Counted from the stretch's first letter, positions 54,417 through 58,147 are shown. The stretch is DNA of 64,000 nt from Candidatus Finniella inopinata (GCA_945888455.1 CAMCZV010000002.1:62001-126000), one strand, 5' to 3'. The notes: generated by a model from the letters alone, not told the origin. Program-made: numbers and translations.

Positions 54417-56303
54417 CTAGTACCACAAAAAAGATGCCAGTTGGGATATTTTTTCACGACAATTTTTTTGATCATAGGCCCGAACAGGGGACGGCAAATC
54501 ACCTGAGCGCAACTGAGAAAAGGCCATCAATTGAAAGGATTGGATGGTTCGCAGGATATGATAAATATTTGAATATTCCAGCTGTGACATGATGCCTCTT
54601 TTTTGTAATTGTTGGGCAATGGAACGTTGCTGTTGGGTTTGTGCAGCCGATAGGGGAGAATTTCCACCTAACCGCGGGGTCATCAAAAAGATGGCCGACG
54701 TGATGTCGTCATTTTTTTGGAAACTAGAGGTAAAGTATTGAACCAACGGTATGCTTTGCAGCAGAGGGAACCCGCTTCTGCTTTCGTTACGTTGTTGGGT
54801 TTGAATGCCCGATATCACAATGGTTTGACCCAGCATGGCTTTGACCGTGGTAGATACCTTAGAGCGCTGGATTTGAATTAGCTGGTTGGATATTCCGATT
54901 CCAGAATTGGGTAAGTTGACAAAATCTGAACCCACCAACGTGATTTCCAATACAACTTCCCCTTGTTCAGACAGAGAGACCGGACGAATTTCGATTTTCA
55001 TACCGGCATCAATGGATGCGGTTGCCGCACCAGTCAGGTTTCCTGCTGTCGAACCCGTATATTGAGCGCCCTGCAAAAAATAGGCAGAGTGACCAAGGGT
55101 TGTTGACAAACTGGCACGCGATACCAATTCCACTTTTGATCGTCCAGAGTTGGCAATATTCAGACTGTACTGCATAGCAAAAGGCGTAATGCCGTAAGCC
55201 AGCGTACTGACAGTGCTGGAAAAGTCTTTAGATCCAGTTACGCTGCTGGTAGCAAATTTTTTCGCAATATTCCATTGCGGGGATGCATCAAGACCTCCGG
55301 AATTATCGCCTGTCCCACCCAAAACAACTTGCAAGCTGTTGAAAATATTCTGCCCCCTGCTTTCTGTTTTTTGATCAGAATAACTGATCAGAGTCGTGTC
55401 AAAAATCAACGATGGTGGAGAGTCTGTGCTTGCTTTTGTCTCTAGATTCTTTTCATCATTACCCTTTCTGCTTTCAAAGGATGAAAATTCAGTGTTGGCG
55501 CGCAAGCCTGCTGCTTCTGTACTTGGCGCTGATCCCATCAACTGAATGCGCGTGCCTGTTTTTGCCCACTGGTTCAGTCGCTGTTTCATCACGGCAATAT
55601 CAGATTGGTTCTTGCCAACCAGTTGACTGTATGCATTCAGGTATTGTTCTGCTTTTACTTTTTCCCCTGCTGCGGCACAAATCATGGCTGCAGATCGAAT
55701 GATTTCTGGTTTTTTTGGACACATTTTTGCAGCTTTTTCGATAAATGTCAGGGCTACGGGTAAATCATAAGCATAATAAGACGCATACGCCAGCGAATAG
55801 GTTACATCCGGATTAACAGAACATAGGGAATAGGCTTCTACGAAATATTTTTGAGCTTCTTTGTATTTCGACATTTTTAATGCATTTAATCCGCGCAAAT
55901 AATGGGTCAGCCACAAGGATGGATCCAAATCCATGGCTGTTCGATAAGCAATTTCTATCAATTCTTTGCAGTCATCTTGACCCGTGTCCAGCAAAGATTC
56001 ATAAATAAACGCATTTAATAAATGCAGAGCTGCATTTCGGGGCTCGATATTGATGGATTGATTGACGTACAGAGAGGCTTCTTTTAACTGGCCTTGCTGG
56101 ATAAAGGTTTTGACTTTGGGTAGGGAAAAAAAGGATGGGAATGAAATGGGACCTTGTTTCAAGAAATCCATTGGGCTGGATTGCGCCGCTGGCATAGCAA
56201 CAGATCGCGATTTTCGATTTTGACACCCTTGTTGTACCAGCAAAGACAAGGCCAGTGCAACGAATGTCTTCCAGACTACACGATCCATCATAGACTGTTT
56301 CAT
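54417..56303 (-). CDS. TPR-secretin protein 2 (downstream copy)
   Basis: 628 residues. A hydrophobic lead (ALALSLLVQQGCQ) suggests a lipoprotein or Sec signal, though VQQGC is an imperfect lipobox. Helical TPR-like repeats occupy about 55-245 (AALHLLNAFIYES, WLTHYLRGLNALKMSKYKEAQKYF, VTYSLAYASYYAYD). A variable linker follows, then a secretin-type beta domain at about 340-555, with GQTIVISGIQTQ and FPLLQSIPLVQYFTSSF, the counterpart of the GspD/PilQ GG...P.LG.IP.LG..F motif. The C-terminal end is aromatic (SFLWY). Paralogue of the gene 11 bp upstream. Secretins normally carry N0-N3 domains in place of the TPRs. Confidence 0.78.
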   Translation of the reverse strand: MKQSMMDRVVWKTFVALALSLLVQQGCQNRKSRSVAMPAAQSSPMDFLKQGPISFPSFFSLPKVKTFIQQGQLKEASLYVNQSINIEPRNAALHLLNAFIYESLLDTGQDDCKELIEIAYRTAMDLDPSLWLTHYLRGLNALKMSKYKEAQKYFVEAYSLCSVNPDVTYSLAYASYYAYDLPVALTFIEKAAKMCPKKPEIIRSAAMICAAAGEKVKAEQYLNAYSQLVGKNQSDIAVMKQRLNQWAKTGTRIQLMGSAPSTEAAGLRANTEFSSFESRKGNDEKNLETKASTDSPPSLIFDTTLISYSDQKTESRGQNIFNSLQVVLGGTGDNSGGLDASPQWNIAKKFATSSVTGSKDFSSTVSTLAYGITPFAMQYSLNIANSGRSKVELVSRASLSTTLGHSAYFLQGAQYTGSTAGNLTGAATASIDAGMKIEIRPVSLSEQGEVVLEITLVGSDFVNLPNSGIGISNQLIQIQRSKVSTTVKAMLGQTIVISGIQTQQRNESRSGFPLLQSIPLVQYFTSSFQKNDDITSAIFLMTPRLGGNSPLSAAQTQQQRSIAQQLQKRGIMSQLEYSNIYHILRTIQSFQLMAFSQLRSGDLPSPVRAYDQKNCREKISQLASFLWY

Positions 56304-56314
56304 AACACTCCTTT

Positions 56315-58147
56315 TTAAAAATAGAAAAAGCTGGATAAATTGCTTAATCGCTCTGACAATGGTTCTAATTGGGATTCAGGAATGACCAACGCATCCCCCG
56401 ATTGACAACCGTTAACCAGAGACATCCTGCCCAAATGTTTTAAAATCAAGGCGTATGTGGATGGACCAGAATAGGTAAACCCAGATGGATCGGCCCTTTG
56501 CAGATCTTTAAAGACCTCACTTTGATCCGGTGTTTTGGTGTACGCTGTTTTAGCTTGACCGCCCAATTGAACGCTGAGAAGGTACAAAATGGTGGCTTCC
56601 GAAGTGTTGTTATTCACCGCAGAGAAGAAATATTGCAAAATAGGAATATTGCCCAGCACTGGGAATCTAGAGTCTGCCACTTTTTTCACGGTTGTTTTTA
56701 ATCCACCGACAATGATGGTTTGACCCGCATATACTTTGACAATGGTCGATATTTTAGAGCTGTTGACTTGAACCAACTGATCGCCTAGCCCTTGGGATAT
56801 GGCAGATTGGGACAATACTCGGCTTCCCCCATCGCCCACCGCCGCCGCCGATGTCATCGTGATATCTAGGGTAATCAGCCCGTCTTCTGTAATATTAATG
56901 GGTTTAACTTCTAATTTATCTCCCGCATCAATGGTCACCAACGATCCACCAGCCGGAGCCGCTTGGATAACGCTGCCTGCAAAAAAGGCAGCCGGTTTGC
57001 CCATTAACGTAGAAATGGTTGGCCGAGAAGAATAGGTGGCAATGGATCGTGATGCATTGGCAATATTTAGGGCGTAATTCAAGGCCGATGGTGTGATGTT
57101 GTAATTAAAGGTGTGCCCCTTTAATGTAGTCGATGGTGTGGCAGACGTGCTGGTTTGTTGACGAGCCCACCAAAGCAACGGGCTTCTACCCGTAGAGTTC
57201 GCCGTTGATCCACCCAAGACCACCGACAGAGGATTGGTTACATTTTTAACTTGATCATAAGCATTAAATACGTTGTTCCCTTTTTGCTGGTTGTTGCTTT
57301 GGTTGACCAATAAAATGTATCCATTCAAGATGATGCTGGGTACGTCATCTTCTTTTACCGCATCTTTGTCATCTTTTTTGCCCTCATCATTGTCCGCCAT
57401 CCGAGAAATTTTAGTATTGGCGTGCAATCCTTTCCAATACTGGATTCTGTTGCTGATGTGCTGCAAATCACCTTTGCTGGATTTTCCTGCCAACTTGGCA
57501 TAGCAATCAAAGGCCACCTGACTGTCTTGAAAATGCCCACTGGCGGCGTAAATCACAGAGGCCGTACGATAGTACAATGGATTTTTCGAGCACAATGACA
57601 AAGCTTTTTTAATGGAGCAATAGGCTGTTTTAATATCCCCATTGCGATAAGAGGCGCACGCCAAGACATACAACAATTTATGCTCATCTGGACGCATCAT
57701 CACACCTTGGGCAAAGTGACGTTGCGCCATAAAGGAATCCCCCTGGGATAAGTATTGCTGACCCAGCAAATAATGGGCTGCAGGATTGGACTGGTCTGCG
57801 GTTAACGCGGCTTGATACGCCACAGTCGCCATTTTTCCTGCATTGCTCTCTCCCAACAGCGCTCTCGCTTCCCAGATGAATCCCTGGGCAATGTGCAATG
57901 CCGCACAGTTTGGATAATTTTCCAGTGTTTTATTGATGTAACTGGATGCTTCGCTGAGTTGATTTTTCTGAATAAAACTTAACAGCAGCGCCAAGGAAAA
58001 AGAGCTGGGAAACTGAGAGTGCAAGTCCTTTAAAAAAGATATTTTCTCGGAATACAGTTGTGATTTTTTTGAGACCACTTTTTCTGATTTTTGAGAGCAT
58101 CCAGCAGCGATGAGGCAAAGGATGTTGGCAAAATACCACCTCTTCAT
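56315..58147 (-). CDS. TPR-secretin protein 1 (upstream copy)
   Basis: 610 residues. The N-terminus KRWYFANILCLIAAGCSQ is a good lipoprotein signal. TPR-like repeats run about 40-235 (ALHIAQGFIWEARALLG, PAAHYLLGQQYLSQGDSFMAQRHFAQG, LYVLACASYRNGDIKTAY). The secretin half (about 300-550) includes YAGQTIIVGGLKT and FPVLGNIPILQYFFS, plain secretin signatures, and ends in SSFFYF, an outer-membrane-like aromatic end. The two paralogues are moderately alike over their whole length, including the NIAN-SRS and IDAG segments. The pair is preceded by 300 bp of AT-rich DNA and forms its own operon. Confidence 0.8.
   Translation of the reverse strand: MKRWYFANILCLIAAGCSQKSEKVVSKKSQLYSEKISFLKDLHSQFPSSFSLALLLSFIQKNQLSEASSYINKTLENYPNCAALHIAQGFIWEARALLGESNAGKMATVAYQAALTADQSNPAAHYLLGQQYLSQGDSFMAQRHFAQGVMMRPDEHKLLYVLACASYRNGDIKTAYCSIKKALSLCSKNPLYYRTASVIYAASGHFQDSQVAFDCYAKLAGKSSKGDLQHISNRIQYWKGLHANTKISRMADNDEGKKDDKDAVKEDDVPSIILNGYILLVNQSNNQQKGNNVFNAYDQVKNVTNPLSVVLGGSTANSTGRSPLLWWARQQTSTSATPSTTLKGHTFNYNITPSALNYALNIANASRSIATYSSRPTISTLMGKPAAFFAGSVIQAAPAGGSLVTIDAGDKLEVKPINITEDGLITLDITMTSAAAVGDGGSRVLSQSAISQGLGDQLVQVNSSKISTIVKVYAGQTIIVGGLKTTVKKVADSRFPVLGNIPILQYFFSAVNNNTSEATILYLLSVQLGGQAKTAYTKTPDQSEVFKDLQRADPSGFTYSGPSTYALILKHLGRMSLVNGCQSGDALVIPESQLEPLSERLSNLSSFFYF

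Follow-up and report, generated by a model that had tools for sequence, protein, structure and literature searches.

The question raised by this locus is whether a secretin can carry its own pilotin in the same polypeptide, and work apart from the motor of a pilus or T2SS. The locus lies in a window of 64,000 nucleotides (G000:C2:62001-126000), this being the whole stretch of DNA that was analysed, in a genome of 811 kb and 8 contigs whose nearest named relatives are one alphaproteobacterial MAG and one Holosporales MAG. The earlier note had described two adjacent paralogues here, each joining TPRs to a secretin domain, and the ORFs and the Pfam matches to both domains in each protein bear this out. 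Both genes and their parts are on the minus strand, and are given in positions of the window. Copy B is the upstream gene (56315..58147, 610 aa, with Secretin, TPR_2 and TPR_17 above cut-off) and copy A is the downstream gene (54417..56303, 628 aa, with Secretin and TPR_2). They are separated by 11 bp, and the pair is flanked by divergent rmuC and a gph-like HAD phosphatase gene. The two proteins align from end to end with 32% identity (E 1e-79), which identifies them as paralogues.

Both copies have the same layout: behind a signal peptide and a cysteine come about five TPRs, then a linker that varies, then the secretin domain, and last an aromatic tail, which is conserved. The signal peptide of copy B (58097..58147) includes Cys17 in a clear lipobox, IAAGC, and that of copy A (56223..56303) includes Cys27 in the non-canonical sequence VQQGC. 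The description of the two as lipoproteins thus stands for copy B and is doubtful for copy A, which has Gln at -3, though 34 of 35 relatives keep the cysteine. The TPR domain follows (residues 51-249 in copy A, 55557..56153; residues 42-241 in copy B, 57425..58024), and is joined to the secretin domain by a poorly conserved linker (residues 250-296 in copy A, 55416..55556; residues 242-269 in copy B, 57341..57424, as defined by alignment). The copies do differ in length and in linker as had been claimed, with linkers of about 47 and 28 residues. In two distant relatives (L120:8716-10890, L119:9033-11474) the linker between TPR and secretin contains LysM (E 3.2e-10) or SPOR (E 7.4e-8), which are peptidoglycan-binding domains, and their presence suggests that the linker of these relatives may contact peptidoglycan.

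The secretin domain occupies residues 297-545 of copy A (54669..55415) and residues 270-528 of copy B (56564..57340). The Pfam Secretin model (PF00263), with a curated cut-off of 27.5 bits, is exceeded by both copies: residues 388-545 of copy A score 72.8 bits (E 3.3e-20) and residues 367-524 of copy B score 67.2 bits (E 1.7e-18), and TPR_2 is likewise above its cut-off in both. Across 44 relatives, conservation is high in the TPR and secretin parts, poor in the linker, and high again in the C-terminal tail, which is LRSGDL...FLWY in copy A (residues 578-628, 54420..54572) and QSGDAL...FFYF in copy B (56318..56464, from alignments). The tail motif is of the form FRxGD-like ... FLYY/F, with Asp602 present in 44/44 relatives and the terminal Y/F in 38/44. 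The secretin hallmark G...P.L..IP..QYF is also kept, its Gly499, Pro513, Leu515 and Pro519 being invariant in the alignment, so that both the hallmark and the aromatic C-terminus noted earlier are real and are conserved among relatives.

A profile built from the family matches solved secretins in the PDB over its last ~200 positions, namely GspD, PilQ, MxiD, InvG, the phage virion export protein and RcpA, which come from the T2SS, T4P, T3SS, Tad and filamentous phage systems. What precedes the secretin domain is different. The earlier note proposed that TPRs take the place of the N-domains, and this is what Pfam finds: there is no match to STN or Secretin_N (N0-N3) in either copy, the gap between TPR and secretin amounting to only 28-47 variable residues, whereas the other secretin of the genome does have N-domains. 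Such ring-building domains (N0/N1/N3) usually precede a secretin domain, although PF00263 is not defined by them. None of the NCBIfam models for named secretins reaches its cut-off for the twins, the best scores being 51.6 bits for PilQ (cut-off 284), 47 for MshL (250), 37 for GspD (351) and 42 for SctC (238).

Single-chain models were produced by AF2 from six-sequence alignments. The TPR part alone is confident in these, with pLDDT mostly 70-88 in copy A and 72-89 in copy B. Mean pLDDT is 45-47 and there is no confident secretin fold, the low confidence in the secretin part being a consequence of the fact that only six sequences were usable. In structural comparison, the TPR model of copy A is matched by PilW (2vq2) with Z 18.3 over 195 residues, tied for first place, and by PilF with Z 16.4; the corresponding values for copy B are Z 17.7 and Z 16.4, and the PilF match spans 187-188 residues of the models. 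MamA and designed TPRs tie with PilW and PilF in structural score, and the likeness to PilW and PilF is thus one of fold class only. At the sequence level, phmmer matches PilF weakly across most of the TPR domain (E 0.005), and the NCBIfam PilW model TIGR02521 gives E 4.6e-8, with 32.9 and 28.7 bits, below its cut-off of 154.

These results lead us to a reading in which each twin is a liposecretin with a TPR pilotin, of the PilF/PilW/TadD fold, in the same chain, and to which we give a probability of roughly one half. It builds on what is directly observed, namely the domains, the TPR fold class, the conservation of the tail, the recurrent gene context and the absence of the ATPase from some genomes (the last two are described below), and from these we infer lipidation and sorting, docking of the tail in the TPR groove, and a multimeric channel with export activity. 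A lipid at the N-terminus, for which the sign is clear in copy B and less certain in copy A, would direct the protein along the Lol pathway to the outer membrane. There the TPR domain would sit at the periphery of the ring, with its groove holding a C-terminal tail, either that of the same subunit or that of the neighbouring one. TadD, a PilF-like TPR lipoprotein, has a groove that binds the last residues of RcpA and is essential for the ring (PMC10499894), and by analogy the TPR groove of the twins could have their conserved tail as its ligand. If the groove does hold the tail, the secretin domains could form a multimeric channel without a further pilotin. The flexible linker would pass through or touch the peptidoglycan. 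Since the protein has no stacked N-domain rings, which normally dock to an inner-membrane machine, the substrate would probably be taken directly from the periplasm. Weighing against a built-in pilotin are the facts that TPR domains bind many partners, that no pilotin model reaches its cut-off, and that the lipobox of copy A is non-canonical.

The earlier note saw no pilus, T2SS or T3SS partner gene nearby. This is true of the neighbourhood, but not of the genome, which has a T4P/T2SS-like operon, an ordinary secretin and a prepilin peptidase. The operon (contig C4, L053:5385-11365) encodes the genome's one GspE, with an MshEN domain, and its one GspF, followed by proteins of 448, 216 and 187 aa that match no Pfam family. 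Contig C3 carries an isolated gene for an MshL-like secretin (L027:9695-11395), probably the secretin of this operon. Like the twins, this protein is a putative lipoprotein with a PF00263 domain; unlike them, it has Secretin_N_2 and an N0-like match at its N-terminus, and its alignment with the twins is confined to the secretin domain.

It could be argued from this that the twins serve the T4P/T2SS-like machine as substitute or additional gates in the outer membrane, with their genes lying elsewhere, an arrangement common in reduced genomes. GspE and GspF do coexist with TPR-secretins in 8/8 members of the family (with the peptidase in 6), and in the sample of the whole class a PilB/GspE-type ATPase occurs more often with TPR-secretins than expected, in 15/23 genomes that have them against 133/362 that do not (Fisher p 0.008, uncorrected for kinship). 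Furthermore, MshN, which belongs to the MSHA pili, is predicted to be a TPR protein (PMC10499894). We nevertheless consider such a role unlikely: an ordinary secretin is already present to serve the machine, the twins have no N-domains with which to dock to an inner-membrane platform, and 8 of the 23 TPR-secretin genomes are without a PilB/GspE-type ATPase at E 1e-40. At a looser limit, only weak partial matches appear, in five of these 8. A search with the T2SSE family finds members of the wider superfamily, which includes the Tad and type IV secretion ATPases, in six of the 8, and none in G113 (99% complete) or G127 (80% complete). Given the genomes with a TPR-secretin and no such ATPase, it is not an obligatory component of a pilus or of a T2SS, and as judged from gene content it is apparently independent of their motor.

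Both copies seem to be in use. Orthologues of copy A within the genus have 92% and 88% identity, and among three genomes of the genus dN/dS is 0.075-0.087 for copy A and 0.075-0.094 for copy B, lower than in most comparisons of the neighbours gph, rmuC, ctpA and hemW and higher than in ctrA. Values of about 0.08 indicate strong purifying selection, from which we conclude that neither copy is idle. A possibility, compatible with the built-in pilotin, is that A and B build one mixed ring and that neither is functional alone. The genes are only 11 bp apart and under similar selection in the genus, and TPR-secretins are found in 8/8 genomes of the family, as an adjacent pair wherever the contigs allow it to show. 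In two other families of the order, one TPR-secretin gene was found per genome, and single copies are the rule in most relatives, which makes an obligatory mixed ring somewhat doubtful. In the tree, too, A and B do not pair off with corresponding copies from other genera: copy A, copy B and both copies of the other genera form separate supported groups, with a long branch to B, and one or several duplications would both fit. AU tests for a single ancient duplication weakly reject the grouping of B with the first gene (p 0.03) or the second gene (p 0.04) of the other genera, and do not reach rejection for A with the second gene (p 0.10). As A and B do not group with matching copies elsewhere, the pairs may have arisen more than once.

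The survey of genomes shows that the TPR-secretin is an old and widespread family across the proteobacteria, with single copies common in relatives. Of the order, 10 genomes were searched, and every one of them has it. In the class sample, about 23 of 385 alphaproteobacterial genomes, ranging from 0.6 Mb to 4-5 Mb, have a protein with TPR and secretin domains or large parts of one, and the phylum sample adds one further alphaproteobacterial family and four or five from other classes. In one genome, G149 (L109:9328-11364, L110:9910-11879), both genes look broken, one having an in-frame TGA and the other being split across two frames; apparently intact TPR-secretins occur elsewhere in its family. 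A phage origin was considered, and no matching phage record was found. A search of plasmids gave a single distant relative, a divergent TPR-secretin among hypothetical genes on a plasmid of Asticcacaulis sp. AND118 (L121:7812-9476), where it is annotated as a tetratricopeptide repeat protein.

Gene neighbourhoods provide clues as to a possible substrate. Around the TPR-secretins of symbiont-like genomes, the genes resemble ordinary housekeeping genes; rmuC and the gph-like gene are kept within the genus, and no neighbours were seen to be shared in the other genera of the family. In 11 free-living genomes from five families, some in the class and some beyond it, the adjoining gene, which has the same orientation, codes for an exported pentapeptide-repeat protein whose CDLRY start is conserved. 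The gap between the two genes is -4 to +34 bp in ten of these genomes and 157 bp in the other. A periplasmic solute-binding protein (NMT1_3 or SBP_bac_3) is often found before or after the pentapeptide-repeat gene, and in G404 and G413 (L134:8607-10415, L135:10341-12182) the pentapeptide-repeat protein beside the TPR-secretin has a C-terminal extension resembling a solute-binding protein. Within the free-living relatives, the adjacent pentapeptide-repeat protein is the best candidate for a substrate or partner. A search of the window's own family, run without a positive control, found no pentapeptide-repeat relative, so this export context may not carry over to it.

Other TPR-secretin copies are near tectonin or lectin-domain proteins, or adjoin related giant proteins. 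The two giant proteins, of 2384 and 2918 aa (L119:1836-8990, L137:3-8756), are from unrelated genomes and have a region in common (E 9e-13), and one of them carries ricin-type lectin domains. In three highly reduced genomes of 0.6-0.8 Mb (L114:9160-11627, L115:9170-11535, L113:9660-12155), the TPR-secretin adjoins a gene resembling undecaprenyl-pyrophosphate phosphatase.

This last context, together with the LysM and SPOR domains in some linkers and the retention of a single or double copy throughout the order, could favour a different role, in which the protein would act as a scaffold or structural ring of the outer membrane and peptidoglycan, export nothing, and use its TPRs to organise periplasmic or cell-wall enzymes. 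The TPR parts of AlgK and PgaA play a comparable organising role for polymers. Against a purely structural role, the hallmark motif is kept, the secretin domain matches channel-forming secretins, and exported proteins are recurrent neighbours in free-living genomes, and we regard such a role as improbable.

If the built-in pilotin is combined with the neighbourhoods, a broader but tentative proposal is that the TPR-secretin forms the centre of a proteobacterial system for export or surface display that is undescribed and works without a motor. A self-piloted secretin would move folded proteins of the periplasm (those with pentapeptide repeats, tectonin or lectin proteins, and the adjacent giant proteins), often with a solute-binding sensor or loader, and would be reduced in intracellular lineages to the secretin alone, sometimes doubled. 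The earlier note had suggested an undescribed system in this window. The suggestion survives in that the twins stay below the cut-off of every NCBIfam model for a named secretin and no published description was found, and it falls short in that the system is not special to this genome. The families and papers searched, an incomplete coverage of the literature that is not proof of absence, hold no description of the fusion, the tail motif or the gene context. The fold is already known; it is the architecture that is new. A widespread secretin built in this way, with no N-rings and no obligatory motor, would make the role of a TPR pilotin testable within one polypeptide, and one must ask what passes through such a pore and what powers it. 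That genomes of 0.6-0.8 Mb retain it suggests that it has a basic role in the envelope of intracellular alphaproteobacteria.

To our knowledge, known secretins depend either on a pilotin that is a separate protein or on a simple lipid anchor, and belong to large motor-driven machines, and we know of no TPR domain in the liposecretin HxcQ. The closest parallels have the same parts in other arrangements. PilQ of type IV pili works with the TPR lipoproteins PilF, PilW or Tgl, and the TPR fold of the twins matches that of PilW and PilF; unlike the twins, PilQ has N-terminal periplasmic domains and a PilB-type motor, whereas the fusion is without those domains and is present in genomes without PilB. 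In Tad pili, RcpA and TadD provide a secretin domain and a PilF-like TPR domain as in the twins, and lipidated TadD is needed for the assembly of RcpA (PMC10499894), but these are two separate proteins of a pilus system, whereas each twin is one chain with no Tad genes nearby. The rhizobial T3SS has a similar pair in the secretin RhcC2 and the lipidated TPR protein Y4yS, which has a pilotin-like effect and for which a relationship to the Tad pair has been suggested (PMC4311626); again these are two proteins, in a T3SS locus. Finally, the passage of PMC3542185 that cites Viarre 2009 describes HxcQ of the P. aeruginosa T2SS as a liposecretin for which the lipid anchor alone suffices for self-piloting, and it resembles the twins in being a secretin that is itself a lipoprotein, and differs from them in being part of a T2SS.
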